This document shows positions 3,001 to 27,677 of a stretch of DNA of 55,121 nucleotides, one piece after another. The DNA comes from a virus: IMG/VR virus record IMGVR_UViG_3300025305_000023, positions 1 through 55,121 of that record. One strand, written 5' to 3'. The position numbers and the translations under genes are program-made. The notes under the pieces were generated by a model. The model saw only the letters and a list, made by a program, of their open reading frames with translations. It did no database searches and had not been told where the DNA came from. The first letter of the stretch is position 1; every line of letters starts with the position of its first letter.

Positions 3001-4924
3001 TACCAATAATGCCACCTGAACTAATATATTCATTTCCGGCAAGAAGAATAGTATAATCGTTTGTAGAATTTATTGATATAGCATTACCACTAACAGTTAA
3101 GGTTCTAAAATATGCAGTTGCACCCTCTCTGGTTTTATAAATTTTACCATAGTTAAGACTCTCTTGACTTGGTACAGCCCCCACATTTTCGCCAGCATTC
3201 GTGATTGTATATTCATAATTATAATCAGTCCCCGTTGGTCCTTTTGCACCACTAACACCAATTGAATATTCTAATTTTCTACCCCACCACTCTGTATCAT
3301 AATCAGACTCATCTCTGACATCAGAAATAGTAATATTTAAATAATCTTCAGATAATATAAAGGCAGAACCGACCGTGGGGGCACCCCCAGTAAATCCAGA
3401 CGGCGCGCCAACCGCAATATCCCCTCCCCTGTAGGATATCTTTATTCCCCATCCAATACCTGTAACACTATCGCCAGCAATCCCACCCTCATCGACCCAC
3501 ACATAATTCTTAGATGGATATATAATATCTTTTAATACGAACTTCGATGGCCCCCCGGCTTGACTTTCATCTTTATAGATATACACTCTGCCAGGTGAGC
3601 CGTCAGTAGCATTGTTATGGTTTCCGGCACCACACGCACCAATAACAAGAATGTTTTTCCACAGATCAACACCATGTCCAAAATTTGCACCCGCTTCTGG
3701 AAATGGATTATCTATTAATTGACTATGTGTCCAGTTTCCATCACTATTTCTCCTATAAACAAAAACAGATCCATTATAAGCACCATAATTTGCATTCTCC
3801 CCCACCTTTAAGTTTTCATGTCCCGGAGGATAGTTGATCCCCTTCCGTGGGATCAAATGACCATTTATACTATTTGGCGAACCAGCAACAGCAATATCTT
3901 TATGAATCGCAGAATCTAAACCAAGAGAAGGCTTGTAGGGTCCGGGCTCGCAGGGCGACCCCGACTCGCATATTCCTTTTTTATAAAACACCCTTTGCCA
4001 TGTACTATCTGTATATTCATATATTGTAATGCCACCCATATACGCATCATCGGCGTGTGCTGCCAGTATCATTCTGTCTTCAGTAATTTGACTATCACTG
4101 AACCCACTAATGCCCCCATCATCTGTTGAGGAGGTCCATCCTCTTATTTCATCCAGTGTCTTAGCAGTCCATGTTGTATTTTCAGTCCAAGTATCTCCGC
4201 TATCGGATGTGGTAAAATGCCAAATGAATGCTGATTGCGTGTCGCTGCCCTGCCCCGGTGCTTTTGAAAAGAAAAGAGAGTTTGTTTTAGCATCAACTAA
4301 ACATGCACCCCGTCCTACTTTTCTCCAGGTGGATTGAACACCAGGGGCCCCTATTTCTTGTACCTGTGTCCACACTTCTGTAGAATAATCTCTTTTCCAC
4401 ACATATACAGCACCGGTTGCATTGCCGCCGACTTCTGCCCCTTCTGCACCAGCGACAACCACAACATCCCCGTTATCAAAAATAGTAATATCTGTATTTC
4501 GACCCGTTGCCCAACCATCACCAACGCCGATGGGTGATAGATCTATTTCATTATACCAATTAGAACCGGCTGTACATCCGGCAGTGTTTCCTTTTTTGTA
4601 TACCCGTACTCTACCACCACCCGTATTGTGTCTCGGATCACCGAAAATTTTATAATCACCCGCTTCCCTTATTCCGTACTTACCAAATTTATCACTAACA
4701 CCACCATCACCATCAGCAGGAGGATTAGATCCCTCTATCGCATAACTTTCACCAAACAAAGAAATATTTGATATGCCACTTCCTATTGGTCCAGCAGGGC
4801 CAGTATGTCCAGTGGCTCCGGTAGCCCCGGTGGCTCCAATGGCTCCGATAGGACCGCTGGGCCCGGCGAAGCCAAGCGAACCAGTGATATCTTCTATTCT
4901 GCTTGATCCGTATGTTCTTATCAT
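1..4924 (-). CDS. Giant tail-fibre/adhesin, 3' end beyond window
   Basis: The reading frame opens with ATG at 4924 (MIRTYGSS) and stays open to base 2, so about 1,640 residues are visible and the C-terminus lies outside. In order it shows: a collagen-like G-x-y stretch (about residues 17-48); FG-GAP/integrin-like beta-propeller repeats (about 100-530), for example blades containing DIAVAGSPN, FGHGVDLWKNILVIGACGAG and GRVYIYK; a beta-rich linker; at least six Cys-rich modules beginning G-A-C-C or similar (about 770-1155); a dockerin-like calcium loop, DCNEDGVVDSDD (about 1180-1200); and a further Cys- and Trp-rich region. This architecture suits an extended virion-surface adhesin that contacts the host. 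It is the last gene of the minus-strand tail cluster. Function as a fibre is inferred from position and domains. The exact host ligand cannot be told. Confidence 0.85.
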   Translation of the reverse strand, partial: MIRTYGSSRIEDITGSLGFAGPSGPIGAIGATGATGATGHTGPAGPIGSGISNISLFGESYAIEGSNPPADGDGGVSDKFGKYGIREAGDYKIFGDPRHNTGGGRVRVYKKGNTAGCTAGSNWYNEIDLSPIGVGDGWATGRNTDITIFDNGDVVVVAGAEGAEVGGNATGAVYVWKRDYSTEVWTQVQEIGAPGVQSTWRKVGRGACLVDAKTNSLFFSKAPGQGSDTQSAFIWHFTTSDSGDTWTENTTWTAKTLDEIRGWTSSTDDGGISGFSDSQITEDRMILAAHADDAYMGGITIYEYTDSTWQRVFYKKGICESGSPCEPGPYKPSLGLDSAIHKDIAVAGSPNSINGHLIPRKGINYPPGHENLKVGENANYGAYNGSVFVYRRNSDGNWTHSQLIDNPFPEAGANFGHGVDLWKNILVIGACGAGNHNNATDGSPGRVYIYKDESQAGGPSKFVLKDIIYPSKNYVWVDEGGIAGDSVTGIGWGIKISYRGGDIAVGAPSGFTGGAPTVGSAFILSEDYLNITISDVRDESDYDTEWWGRKLEYSIGVSGAKGPTGTDYNYEYTITNAGENVGAVPSQESLNYGKIYKTREGATAYFRTLTVSGNAISINSTNDYTILLAGNEYISSGGIIGNTGELVYSFSGASAQGVKNTHWDGTRLVARLENYRETISNNNYNVLVAPEGPNPINTTENVNSGFLDGSIIPFSYIVTQPSLPGTSTIIKSVKSGLHMGTTSDNEGLSADIIHTFGDTIFATPYVPPTRIGSCCYCKMVSSDPDFPEREGTIPDCLDFTTDIYCDSIGGSFNTIPCANRPEGPGCYKGSACCVGGSCINTNSEKCTLFGGFYIDNTDCEEVEYELGGCPATCEDHGACCVGNLCYDLTEVECSFEPNSTWSAGKTCKTYNCCFAQLGGCCVDEMCYETSPYICSTLFSVDGTPGVFWGTGSSCAGPKRNTEAYAPYECLMDDGIISEPLDEDGLCPDGELPPCRAQCPGWQRLGEQFPCYDGEGNEVSICACDGADCGECEIGVCSTGETQSSGTMILADNTCWECCCEGAVPERPVLFGACCVDDDPDYPEPYCDETNMLDCAMKGGMFMEGLECSDETCNFGACCDKYRGTCRDETYKMDCMGVNEKWYGICDGVACTCDDIIYSVNTWYETGGVNDLLDLISRLGECGPDCDCNEDGVVDSDDVWCLFAWGWDPGDDPHRFNFRSRILDPRIDPTDSPSNTFDWNFMQWHWWPGHTHRFGTYGQTEVGEFPPGSYGEDTIIHDLWDADFWASQGPPSIIWSNFEGFYTCEVRLSWTKILNCQICDYTGSGGGGSPYDRMCKDCRIDNNYFKFHNNSAVPWLKIGAVDYYCTTCAKRGRCCMGPTYGGEYDFMAHLNENQSPEAVGAFLDDLDLKLYNDDDVVIDERPVYSDCYMTHAVCDAHMGHFEPVDTVAYGVDAPRMDLVPPAAGYGCCGKSCQQVPVPMSDDDSEWMEIRNYDPLYPEQCELDKIVCCTKRLGLIETDTWEECLNADFALSGKLGVPLSPRFKTIDEVPDSIKDNLGCGDTGWGACCGCAVQDGVYYHDCVMTKDIMVCLDMGGHWAGTDTMCIDQPLCDGIPAGGTKYGWTCEDCSDNITCPGDVGPDCPW

Positions 4925-23345: not shown

Positions 23346-24215
23346 TTAACCGTAAACTTGTCCCTTACCCATTCTAACCTGACTCCTGCTGGCAATACCA
23401 TCTCCCAGGCTAACAGCAGGCTCAAGTTCAAGAAAAGTCAATTCCAAAGTTGTTGCTGCTGGATACCCACCAAGCGCAGCGTATCCAGAACCAGCAGAAC
23501 CTTGCGTTGTTATACCAACGCGCGATAGAACGCTTGGAAGAGGCCCCATGTCCCACATAAATTGTCCACCTTTGTCACCTTTGTTTAAATTCAATACACT
23601 AATAAACCACACAGGAGGATGAATCACCCTAGAATATGATTGGCCAATTGAGCGAGATGGATATGCGAGTGTTTGAAACTTTTTTACTATATCAGTGATC
23701 CTTGTTCCTGCTCCCTCCACCTTGGGAATCAGTTGCCAAGAATAAGAATGTGTTCGGAAATTGGCTCCCCCGAAAACATTCTCAGTTTCATCCATAGGTC
23801 TATGACCAAGTGCTTGCGAAATTCCAAACTTATCCATCACACCTGTAATCTTAGTTTTCTCCAAAGCCCATTCAATGGCACCCCCAACAGTCGGATCGGT
23901 TATTCCACCTTTAACTTCTGATTGTCCTTGACTATATGCAATCTCATTGTCTGTTTTGATTTGTTGTGGCAAAGGAAGTGTAATATCTGCAAATGTCGGG
24001 CCTGCTGAAGGCGACAGTACTCTAACAACCTGTTTATTAGAATAAATTGATGCAACAAAATTTGTTCTATACCCACCCGTATCTTCTATATCATCAAATT
24101 TACCGGATAGTGGATAAGAAAGTGCTGGTGCCCTCATTGCCCTAATGTTACCAGAACCTAATTTATCTAGAGCCTTGCCTGCAAATTCATTTATTTTTCT
24201 TTGCCATGATCCCAT
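23346..24215 (-). CDS. Baseplate tail-tube cap, gp48/gp54 family
   Basis: 289 residues (T4 gp54 320, gp48 364). It shows the tube-initiator pattern: an N-terminal basic helix, DIEDTGGYRTNFVASIYSNKQVVR, ITDIVKKFQTLAYPSRS, HPPVWFISVLN, and a terminal G-Y-P-A-A-T-T-L-E-L-T-F-L-E-L-E-P. gp48 and gp54 form the platform from which the tail tube polymerises. I cannot tell which of the two paralogs this is, and only one is in the window. It is the first gene of the minus-strand tail operon and diverges from gp4. Confidence 0.75.
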   Translation of the reverse strand: MGSWQRKINEFAGKALDKLGSGNIRAMRAPALSYPLSGKFDDIEDTGGYRTNFVASIYSNKQVVRVLSPSAGPTFADITLPLPQQIKTDNEIAYSQGQSEVKGGITDPTVGGAIEWALEKTKITGVMDKFGISQALGHRPMDETENVFGGANFRTHSYSWQLIPKVEGAGTRITDIVKKFQTLAYPSRSIGQSYSRVIHPPVWFISVLNLNKGDKGGQFMWDMGPLPSVLSRVGITTQGSAGSGYAALGGYPAATTLELTFLELEPAVSLGDGIASRSQVRMGKGQVYG

Positions 24216-24250
24216 CGTTTCATTCCTTTGTTTATGTCTATATATTTATG

Positions 24251-24685
24251 ATGCCATACAAGACGAAATATACAATTCAAAACCCTTCAAAATATATAGG
24301 CGACCCAACAAACATAATATGTCGTTCTTTGTGGGAAAGAAGAGTATGTCGTTATTTAGATGAAAACAAAAACATTGTACAATGGGGCAGCGAAGAATTG
24401 CCAATTCCTTATTATTCGCCCGTAGACAAAAAAATACACAAATATTATCCAGATTTCATTGCAGAAATTAAAAAATCAAATGGCACAACCGAAACCTACA
24501 TCATAGAAGTCAAACCCAAACGACAAACAAAACCTCCTGTTCGGAAAAAACAAAAAGAAAAAACATATATTAAAGAATGTATGACATATTCGGTAAACAA
24601 AGAAAAATGGTCATCCGCAGAACAATTGTGTAAAACAAAGGGTTGGAAATTTCTAATTCTTACGGAAGATACACTTTTACTATAA
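24251..24685 (+). CDS. 4: Head completion protein gp4 (headful-end nuclease-like)
   Basis: 144 residues from ATG at 24251 (T4: 150). KYIGDPTNIICRSLWERRVCRYLDENKNIVQWGSEELPIPY, then DFIAEI and YIIEVKPKRQTKPP, align closely by eye with T4 gp4, including the conserved S-x-W-E, G-S-E and E-x-K-P-K-x-E/Q-T-x-P-P elements. The fold is a PD-(D/E)xK-type nuclease; E-V-K would supply catalytic residues. gp4 acts at the head portal before tail joining. The frame is open upstream to 24206, but that segment reads hydrophobic and unlike the family, so I start at 24251 (24248 is also possible). Confidence 0.9.
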   Translation: MPYKTKYTIQNPSKYIGDPTNIICRSLWERRVCRYLDENKNIVQWGSEELPIPYYSPVDKKIHKYYPDFIAEIKKSNGTTETYIIEVKPKRQTKPPVRKKQKEKTYIKECMTYSVNKEKWSSAEQLCKTKGWKFLILTEDTLLL

Positions 24686-24730: not shown

Positions 24731-25312
24731 ATGGCTCTACCAAATGCACCATACACAGATGTCAGTTCTGGACTTGATTATTTCAAGAGCCATTTTATAT
24801 CTAAAAATGGTCTATCTAGACCCACACGCTATTCTGTATTAATAGAAGCAGACGCATTTACCCCCGGTCATGCAATATTCCAACCAGAAACAGTTTCTCT
24901 CCCGGGAAGAACTTTTAGAACATTACAAGAAAATTGGTTTGGTCCAACTAGAAAAATTCCAGTTGCCAGGGAATTTAATAGCGAAGTAATTATGACATTT
25001 CCTTTAAGTAGAAATTGGGAAGAAAGAACCCTATTTGAAGCATGGATGGATTCCCTTATAAATCCCGAAACCAACGAAACTCATTATTCAGATAACGGTC
25101 AAACTGTCAAAGGAAATATGACAGTATTTTGTATAGACGAAATAAACGAAACCCAAGCAATCTTTAAATTTGATGAAGTTTGGCCTTCAAGTATCATTCC
25201 CATGAATATGGGATTCAATATGATAAATGATTATAACAAACTTCAAATTATTTTTACTTATAGGCAGTATACTTATAAAAGTGAAAATTATCAAACCCCC
25301 ACGTTTAAATAA
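24731..25312 (+). CDS. 19: Tail tube protein gp19
   Basis: 193 residues (T4: 163). FLSRPTRYSVLI-like start, PETVSLPGRTF, the G-P-T-R-K-I-P loop, and FKFDEVWPSSIIPMNM toward the end are the T4 gp19 tube-protein pattern, with the usual beta-sandwich length. It stacks as hexameric rings inside the sheath. It has an AAAGGA ribosome site. The tail sheath gene (gp18), usually next door, is not in this window. Confidence 0.9.
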   Translation: MALPNAPYTDVSSGLDYFKSHFISKNGLSRPTRYSVLIEADAFTPGHAIFQPETVSLPGRTFRTLQENWFGPTRKIPVAREFNSEVIMTFPLSRNWEERTLFEAWMDSLINPETNETHYSDNGQTVKGNMTVFCIDEINETQAIFKFDEVWPSSIIPMNMGFNMINDYNKLQIIFTYRQYTYKSENYQTPTFK

Positions 25313-25346: not shown

Positions 25347-26066
25347 ATGAACACGTTGTCTGATTTATTATTATCAAAAACACCAAAATATAAATTAACA
25401 ATACCATCTAGCCAAAAAGAAGTAAAATACCGACCGTTTCTTGTTAAAGAAGAAAAAATTCTTCTCATTGCACAAGAAACTGGTACACATAGAGACATGT
25501 TAGAGGCAATAGAAAATGTAATTGAATCTTGTGTTGATGATATTTCTGATGCAAGTTCTTTGCCCATATTTGATATTGAATATATTTTTCTTCGTCTTAG
25601 AGCAAAATCAGTGAGCGAAACAGCATCTCCTATTATAGTGTGCCCAGAAACAGACGAAGAAATTTCATTAGAAATTAATTTAATGGAAATTGAACCAACG
25701 GTTGATGAAAAACATAAACGAACAGTTGAGATTGATAATGATATCAAGGTCACATTAAATTATCCAACCTTAAAAATGATCAAAAATAAAGAAGACAATA
25801 TTGATTATGACGACCCTGAGTCTTTTTATGATATTATAATTAATTGTATTGCAAAAATAGAAACGCCAGACGAAACCATTAATGTTTCAACTCTTCCAAA
25901 ATCTGAAATAAAAGATTTTATTGAAAATATGAATAAAAATCAGTTTGAAAAAATACTAGATTTTTTCATTACTTCACCTCGGCTACAATATCAAGCAAAG
26001 TATACTACTTCTGATGGTGTTGAAAGAGAGGTGACTTTACATGGGATATCGGATTTTTTAGAATAG
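25347..26066 (+). CDS. 26: Baseplate hub/tail-assembly protein gp26-like
   Basis: 239 residues (T4: 208). KYKLTIPSSQKEVKYRPFLVKEEKILLIAQE, then DIEYIFLRLRAKSVSE and a C-x-E-x-D-E-x-I loop, match T4 gp26 and its T4_baseplate family. The last codons read GAT TTT TTA GAA TAG, so the stop comes six bases after a T-TTT-TTA heptamer. A -1 slip there would fuse residues 1-238 to a 70-residue extension containing the gp51-like domain. This resembles the two-protein tail chaperones of lambda (G and G-T). In T4, gp26 is needed for hub assembly. Confidence 0.85.
   Translation: MNTLSDLLLSKTPKYKLTIPSSQKEVKYRPFLVKEEKILLIAQETGTHRDMLEAIENVIESCVDDISDASSLPIFDIEYIFLRLRAKSVSETASPIIVCPETDEEISLEINLMEIEPTVDEKHKRTVEIDNDIKVTLNYPTLKMIKNKEDNIDYDDPESFYDIIINCIAKIETPDETINVSTLPKSEIKDFIENMNKNQFEKILDFFITSPRLQYQAKYTTSDGVEREVTLHGISDFLE
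26054..26060 (+). promoter_or_regulatory. Probable -1 ribosomal frameshift site (T TTT TTA)
   Basis: In the reading frame of the gp26-like gene the bases fall as T-TTT-TTA, a classical slippery heptamer, with the zero-frame stop TAG at 26064-26066. After a -1 slip the frame is open from 26060 to 26272 and runs through the gp51-like peptide. No strong downstream hairpin is visible, so efficiency cannot be judged. Confidence 0.6.
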
Positions 26067-26113
26067 GATTATGTCATACTACTTTACAAGATTATTACAT
26101 CCTATCATTTCAA

Positions 26114-26272
26114 ATGATGCAACATCACAACTACAATCTAACTGAACTTGAAGGTATGATTCCTTGGGAACGTGATATCTACTTAGGACAGTTGATTGAA
26201 TATATAGAAATAGAGAATGAAAAAATTCAGTTGGTAGAAATAGAACGAAGACGATCAAAAAACATCAGGTAA
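26114..26272 (+). CDS. 51: gp51-like small protein or C-terminal half of a gp26 frameshift fusion
   Basis: 52 residues if initiated at ATG 26114 (or 26117). The sequence NYNLTELEGMIPWERDIYLGQLIEYIE is the pattern of small tail-assembly chaperone domains of T4-like and other long-tailed phages (P-W/F-E-R-x-x-x-Y). No convincing ribosome site precedes the ATGs, while the -1 frame of gp26 runs straight into this frame without a stop. I therefore think the main product is the 308-residue gp26-51 fusion, with a free form less likely. It sits just upstream of the tape-measure-like gene, where tail chaperones belong. Confidence 0.7.
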   Translation: MMQHHNYNLTELEGMIPWERDIYLGQLIEYIEIENEKIQLVEIERRRSKNIR

Positions 26273-26276
26273 AAAT

Positions 26277-27677
26277 ATGGCAAAAAATAAAAACAAAAAT
26301 ATAACATTCAAAAACAGAATGATGTCGTATTTTAACCATAAAAAGGGAAACGTCAAATCACCTGATTTGACTATCATGCCCCCTAAGAAAAAAAAAGTAC
26401 CAAATCTTTTAAATATAATTTCAGATCCAATTCTGCAAGAGCCAACACCAAAAACAAACAACAAGACAACGGACCAAACATACAATAAAAAAGATGGCGG
26501 ACGTTACTTAAATACATTACATTCAACATTAAACCACCTAAAAGAAAAAATTAATGGTATCATAACCGCTGGACCCAACACAACAATAAACAAATATTAT
26601 TCCACAAACAAAGCATATTCCACAAAAAACAAGCACATTCATATTCAAAGAAATAACAACACCAAAGAAGTACAGATACTTCCCAAAATTATAAAAATTC
26701 CTCAAAAAACTCTAATAAACACGCATACAACAGAAAATGAAAAAATCAATACGGTAGAAAAACAGGCAAAAAACATAGTCAACAATTACAATAGTACATT
26801 TCTACCACAACATCAAACAAAACAATTGCCAACACCAATGACAGAAAAAACAGTTCCACAAAAGACTAATGTGGAATTATCTAGTGACAAAAGAAACAAG
26901 AACATTCCACAAAAGACTAATGTGAAATTATCTAGTGATAGAATAAACAACCAATCATCAAAATCATCAAATCCGCACACACAACAAAAAACAAAAACTC
27001 CCGTATACCAAAAAATTACTAATATCAAGGAAATATATAACACCACAAAAAGTGCTATAATAAATAGTATTCTTAAAAACAATAAACTTGTAAAAACATT
27101 CGCTTCTACCAAAATACCACCAAAAACTACACTAACTACCAACAACACTAATGATAACTATCAAACATATAACCCAATCGTTAATAAAATTGCAAACATA
27201 AGTAATCGCACAATCAATGAAATGAAAAACATAGTTCATGTTGGAAAAAAAATAAAAATACCATCACTTGCTAAAGGTGGTATTGCTAGTAGACCTACTA
27301 TTGCGCAAATTGGAGATGCTCTTTCTCCGAGTGGCCAACCCGATCCTGAAATTATAACACCCATAAGTAAAGTTCCAGAACTGTTGGCAAAAACTAAAAC
27401 TTTAGAACAATCTAGCAACATAATAAACAAAACAGCAAACAACAAATCAATTGGTAGTATTGCAAAAGAAAGATTACAAGAAAATACAAATTTAAAAGCA
27501 GAACAAGAAAAACAAAACGAAGATCGCCCAAAGGGAGATGTGAACATTCAATCTAACCAAATGATTCACACTGAGGGTAAAAATCAACTACCTAAAATAG
27601 AAACAGTACGTCCTAAGGCTATCGCAGCATTGGGGGTGGAAACACATCTTCCAAGATGGCGAAGAGGAATTGGGTAA
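26277..27677 (+). CDS. Tape-measure-like tail protein (short, Lys/Asn/Thr-rich)
   Basis: 466 residues, strongly rich in Lys, Asn and Thr and in predicted helix or disorder. Near residues 328-352 is SLAKGGIASRPTIAQIGDA followed by PEIITPISKVPELL, matching the G-G-I-V-x-x-P-T-x-x-x-x-G-E-x-G-P-E-x-x-I-P-L motif often seen in tape-measure proteins. Two copies of a 10-11-residue repeat (PQKTNV-LSSD) lie near residues 199-222. Position after the gp26/gp51 chaperone supports a tape measure (T4 gp29 is 590 residues). If length scales as in T4 the tail would be somewhat shorter than T4's. Function is inferred. Confidence 0.65.
   Translation: MAKNKNKNITFKNRMMSYFNHKKGNVKSPDLTIMPPKKKKVPNLLNIISDPILQEPTPKTNNKTTDQTYNKKDGGRYLNTLHSTLNHLKEKINGIITAGPNTTINKYYSTNKAYSTKNKHIHIQRNNNTKEVQILPKIIKIPQKTLINTHTTENEKINTVEKQAKNIVNNYNSTFLPQHQTKQLPTPMTEKTVPQKTNVELSSDKRNKNIPQKTNVKLSSDRINNQSSKSSNPHTQQKTKTPVYQKITNIKEIYNTTKSAIINSILKNNKLVKTFASTKIPPKTTLTTNNTNDNYQTYNPIVNKIANISNRTINEMKNIVHVGKKIKIPSLAKGGIASRPTIAQIGDALSPSGQPDPEIITPISKVPELLAKTKTLEQSSNIINKTANNKSIGSIAKERLQENTNLKAEQEKQNEDRPKGDVNIQSNQMIHTEGKNQLPKIETVRPKAIAALGVETHLPRWRRGIG

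Follow-up and report, generated by a model that had tools for sequence, protein, structure and literature searches.

Introduction

In the lambda model of tail assembly, the tape measure protein is covered by many copies of gpG and a few of gpGT, whose T domain brings in tube subunits (PMC5009743). T4 gp26 and gp51 are both counted among the chaperones of hub assembly, with gp51 being needed for assembly and not present in the particle (PMC3004832). Tail assembly chaperone genes that use frameshifting are already reported from T4-like phages (Vladimirov, Gautam and Davidson, Virology 2022;566:9-15). Two papers citing that work treat poly-T slippery signals as known in the short-form (TAC-N) genes of T4-like phages (PMC12846349) and describe some T4-like phages as having separate short and long genes instead (PMC10885494).

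The DNA analyzed here, called the window, is the whole 55,121-nucleotide stretch of IMG/VR virus record IMGVR_UViG_3300025305_000023, a 55-kb fragment from a marine T4-like virus, with a T4-like structural cluster. An earlier note, made from the letters alone, had proposed a -1 frameshift that joins gp26 to a gp51-like domain in the manner of lambda G/G-T, and had supposed that nothing of the kind was described for T4-type gp26. The 2022 report and the papers citing it show that this belief in novelty was wrong. The biology that the note proposed is supported. As detailed below, the putative frameshift is backed by a slippery heptamer, by its conservation and by a coding signal in the -1 frame, and the lambda analogy is supported. 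The locus appears to be one more frameshifting member of the T4-like tail assembly chaperone genes.

Results

The gp26-type gene lies in a cluster with the following members:

24206..24685, + strand: gp4-like head closure gene (phrog_218, E=3.5e-54)
24731..25312, + strand: tail tube / gp54-like gene, preceding gp26 (phrog_45, E=5e-23)
25347..26066, + strand: gp26-type putative tail assembly chaperone, short form (TAC-N), 239 aa (PF12322, phrog_150)
26277..27677, + strand: ORF after gp26 and the -1 domain, 466 aa, in the position of a tape measure gene (by position, with an RBS-like AGGTAA)

The order gp4-like, gp54-like, gp26 resembles that of marine T4-like phages, as compared with P-SSM7, HTVC008M and nt-1. 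The gp26 product matches Pfam PF12322 (T4_baseplate, E=6.4e-56) and phrog_150 (E=4.3e-59), has no match in NCBIfam, and is 41% identical to its best named match. It is the only gp26-type gene across the 55-kb record, which is itself a fragment. In other annotations gp26-type proteins carry the label "baseplate hub". Pfam and PHROG searches with the Asn/Lys-rich 466-aa ORF returned no family matches. Similar ORFs in close relatives are 418-485 aa long, T4 gp29 is longer (590 aa), and the counterpart in HTVC008M, where one small ORF intervenes, matches tape measure PHROGs.

The AlphaFold2 model of gp26 is confident (pLDDT 88.9). Among its best PDB matches were Rbstp2171 (3FGX) at rank 3 with a probability of 0.90 and HK97 gp13 (2OB9) at ranks 9 and 47, in each case with E above 0.5 and hence not significant. 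Both of these proteins are described as tail assembly chaperones (PMC9603447). No match was found when the gp26 sequence was searched against PDB chains.

Three features mark the 3' end of the gp26 gene:

26054..26060, + strand: slippery heptamer T TTT TTA in X XXY YYZ phase, the proposed -1 frameshift site (sequence, conservation)
26064..26066, + strand: TAG, 0-frame stop of the short form, one codon past the heptamer (sequence)
26060..26272, + strand: -1 frame extension, gp51-type C-terminal domain (TAC-C), 70 aa plus TAA (phrog_634, conservation, third-position bias)

The 0-frame codons within the heptamer are TTT at 26055 and TTA at 26058, and the single codon GAA separates it from TAG, so that the heptamer ends three bases before the stop. 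The earlier note was right in placing it in the gp26 frame, and its distance of six bases needs only this trivial correction. The string TTTTTTA occurs 22 times in the AT-rich window, where 27 occurrences are expected, and so shows no enrichment. Its abundance was therefore not taken as evidence and a comparative test was used instead.

The -1 frame has no stop codon between 26024 and 26269 and ends at 26270-26272, confirming the earlier claim that it runs on through a gp51-like peptide. When a region of the same composition is shuffled, about 1.5% of trials leave it open. In PHROGs the -1 peptide hits phrog_634 (gp51, baseplate hub assembly catalyst) with E=8e-22, starting at residue 1. The predicted fusion (TAC-NC, the long form) would comprise 238+70=308 aa, which is the size that had been given for it beforehand.

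We compared this junction across 83 loci (82 distinct) consisting of the hits of one IMG/VR scan, P-SSM7, HTVC008M and the window itself, with gp26 identity reaching down to about 35%. An in-phase T TTT TT(A/C/T) together with an open -1 frame was present at 83/83 loci (82/82 distinct), positioned 7-31 nt before the gp26 stop, while other Phe-Phe or Phe-Leu sites of the same genes carry the heptamer in 13/153 cases. In 68/68 non-redundant loci the codon before the heptamer ends in T, whichever of Asp, Ser, Ala and Asn it encodes. The first Phe codon is TTT, again in 68/68. Given the amino acids and the local codon use, the joint probability of these two regularities is ~1e-20, a figure that assumes independent loci, which related phages are not fully. 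A chance origin of the in-phase heptamer is very unlikely by this comparison. The alignment of related junctions thus came out as the frameshift proposal predicts: every close relative keeps the heptamer in phase, and none of them combines a separate ribosome site with the lack of a slippery sequence.

Conservation of the -1 peptide begins at the slip point, where the aligned relatives read FFRIxLxHxxLxxYYxxNFxLMQHHKYSLTELENMIPWER. Over the 18 codons past the slip, substitutions at -1-frame codon positions 1/2/3 number 603/444/1368, a pattern by which the -1 region is evolving as protein-coding sequence.

It could be argued that the heptamer is incidental and that ribosomes translate the gp51-type peptide separately, from a start of its own or by re-initiating past the gp26 stop. 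Public records do present gp51 in this way, as a tiny protein called from an internal ATG (31 aa in P-SSM7 and 45 aa in HTVC008M; such calls lie at 3777-3872 of locus L081 and 3732-3869 of locus L082), and in nt-1, 6E35.1a, Yut3 and Rhizobium I1_9 an ATG overlaps the gp26 stop (TAATG or TGATG). Yet the first candidate start in the -1 domain of the window is ATG 26114, at residue 20 and thus well inside the conserved domain, with no Shine-Dalgarno sequence upstream of it, in agreement with the earlier statement that the peptide lacks a ribosome site of its own. Among 74 distinct complete domains, ATG, GTG and TTG are all absent from the first 20 codons in 47 and from the first 28 codons in 12, which indicates that the annotated gp51 of P-SSM7 and of HTVC008M begins inside the conserved domain. 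Separate translation also leaves unexplained why the phase of the heptamer is never lost. We consider it very improbable, and the internal-ATG calls should presumably be replaced by the C-terminal part of a frameshifted gp26 product. The gp26 and gp51 parts are joined in none of the annotated records that we inspected.

Returning to the proposed frameshift, we looked at the surroundings of the heptamer for elements that might stimulate it. A downstream stem-loop was not apparent, as the fold of 26061-26140 is no better than that of shuffled sequences (z=-1.1). Upstream, a duplex-energy scan gave one candidate in the window:

26027..26034, + strand: Shine-Dalgarno-like AGAGGTGA, 19 nt upstream of the heptamer (duplex-energy scan)

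Cyanophage-type and marine relatives have a GAGGG element 7-10 nt ahead of the heptamer, and the same scan found strong Shine-Dalgarno-like pairing at a spacing of 7-14 in 52% of loci, compared with 2.3% of control positions in the same genes. The window has no such element at the 7-10 nt spacing, where CATGGG stands, and in its nearest relatives the element is found 19-21 nt upstream. Codon choice points in the same direction: the Glu codon under the upstream Glu-Gly is GAG rather than GAA by 34:9, compared with 315:855 over the whole genes (P=5e-12) and 13:24 for the remaining Glu-Gly pairs (P=9e-5). An upstream Shine-Dalgarno-like element followed by a slip site resembles the dnaX arrangement, and this element may likewise stimulate the -1 shift. 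A conventional start after AGAGGTGA was considered and rejected; the ATG at 26041 begins an ORF of just six codons, in the +1 frame, and is missing in locus L002.

The codon preference also bears on whether the shift might instead occur in transcription, through RNA polymerase slipping on the T run. The run comprises six T here and extends to seven or eight in L028, L057, L063 and HTVC008M, but six T is short for efficient transcriptional slippage, interruption by C or A after T6 is the rule, and a preference for GAG over GAA upstream points to the ribosome. Transcriptional slippage is thus highly improbable as the source of the -1 product. That the two frames are merely decayed or mis-assembled halves of a gene has a negligible probability, since one-base frame differences, a frequent fault of assembly though they are and whether due here to sequencing error or to a real frameshift mutation, would not recur across 82 distinct contigs or genomes and again among more than ten other completed phage genomes, a recurrence that already refutes this explanation.

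Both the gp26 part and the -1 domain are homologous to the T4 gp26/gp51 family (PF12322, phrog_150, phrog_634). Used as a profile, the conceptual fusion aligns with T4 gp26 to its end, where ...EFFELL falls at the slip position, and with most of T4 gp51, across the joint; a profile of the C-terminal domain alone matched T4 gp51 and not gp26 (E-values in these comparisons come from a two-sequence search). T4 gp51 itself belongs to phrog_150 over 13-280 of its 282 residues (E=2.6e-84) and also to phrog_634. The two T4 genes, 26 and 51, are on opposite strands. As T4 gp51 is homologous to the fusion over most of its length, they resemble a short/long pair that arose by duplication, and T4 would use two genes for what this phage makes from one. 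A T4-type separate long-form gene 51 with its own start was not found in the 55-kb fragment.

An in-phase T TTT TTN followed by the -1 domain was also present in Vibrio phage nt-1 and two IMG/VR relatives of it (L115 and the KVP40-type L116), in Vibrio 6E35.1a, Aeromonas Ah1 and CC2, Pseudomonas pf16, Stenotrophomonas DLP6 and Yut3, Rhizobium I1_9 and LG08. Most distant T4-like clades sampled carry T TTT TTN near the gp26 stop in the same phase. The Salmonella jumbo phage SE_PL has an in-phase TTTTTTC 40 nt before the stop of its gp26-type gene, with a -1 domain that begins FFRIQLL..., suggesting from sequence comparison that the arrangement is old and widespread beyond the classical T4-like phages. 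The in-phase T TTT TTN is absent from the T4 group, from the Ackermannviridae and from Vibrio phage D493, for whose gp26 the scan found no relatives. D493 shares with nt-1, I1_9, Yut3 and 6E35.1a the -1-frame ATG that overlaps the gp26 stop. In these clades, coupled re-initiation at this ATG could supplement or replace frameshifting.

The junction of the Ackermannviridae (L088, L096, L098 and L100-L114) reads GAR ATT TTC ATT TAA followed by TTTTTGAAATTGATTTA and is almost invariant. It does not fit an X XXY YYZ heptamer and is possibly a slip site like that of T7 gene 10. The gp51-type domain in the -1 frame is open and conserved in these phages, with an SMPWHL motif.

Discussion

We consider it very probable that this locus is a lambda G/GT-like tail assembly chaperone pair (TAC-N and TAC-NC) produced by -1 programmed ribosomal frameshifting, and at this locus we infer the slippage itself, its rate and the chaperone function. 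The majority of ribosomes would terminate at TAG 26064 to give the short form (gp26, TAC-N). A minority would slip back by one base on T TTT TTA, with the Phe- and Leu-tRNAs re-pairing with UUU UUU, and would continue in the -1 frame to 26272 to give the 308-aa TAC-NC with its gp51-type domain. The two chaperones would in this way be made in a fixed ratio, as is already known for phage lambda. By analogy with lambda gpG and gpGT, many short and few long copies would coat the tape measure protein, the C-terminal domain would bring in tail tube subunits, and both forms would be absent from the finished virion.

A bolder proposal, which we consider less likely than not, concerns how the shift is stimulated. 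In marine T4-like phages the conserved GAGGG located 7-10 nt upstream might promote -1 slippage at T TTT TTN, as in dnaX; the clade of the window might have moved this element to ~19-21 nt (AGAGGTGA/AGGGAGGT), and the Ackermannviridae might have replaced the heptamer with an invariant ATTTTCATTTAA while keeping the -1 domain. The Shine-Dalgarno-like element and the Ackermannviridae variant may be unreported.

If the proposed frameshift is correct, the two genes routinely mis-annotated as "baseplate hub" and "baseplate hub assembly catalyst" are likely one gene with two products, and a likely role is thereby assigned to a gene pair in a very common group of marine viruses. A corrected annotation would touch many records that call the gp51 part a protein of 30-60 aa with an internal start. 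The locus also offers a clean case in which T4 and its close relatives use two genes while relatives of theirs would use a frameshift. In the 2022 work frameshifting was reportedly conserved across several groups of T4-like phages, the alternative being separate genes 26 and 51.

Among the known systems, P2 E/E+E' is like this locus in belonging to a contractile-tailed phage and in its -1 frameshift, which lies directly ahead of the tape measure gene, the place that the putative tape measure ORF would have here. P2 slips on T TTT TTG, a site of the same T TTT TTN type, and lambda on G GGA AAG. The likeness to lambda G/G-T, whose function is described in PMC5009743, lies in a short and a long chaperone obtained from one gene by a -1 frameshift near its 3' end, next to the tape measure gene in lambda and to the putative one here. 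At the TAC locus of the Vandenendeviridae (phage Adele, PMC12846349) a poly-T -1 frameshift was likewise inferred from a conserved open -1 frame, but the invariant motif there is GTTTTT and not T TTT TTN. The T4-like genes reported in 2022 differ in that the present locus comes from a different phage lineage. T4 itself has the same two products, TAC-N (gp26) and TAC-NC (gp51), but makes them from separate genes on opposite strands with no frameshift.
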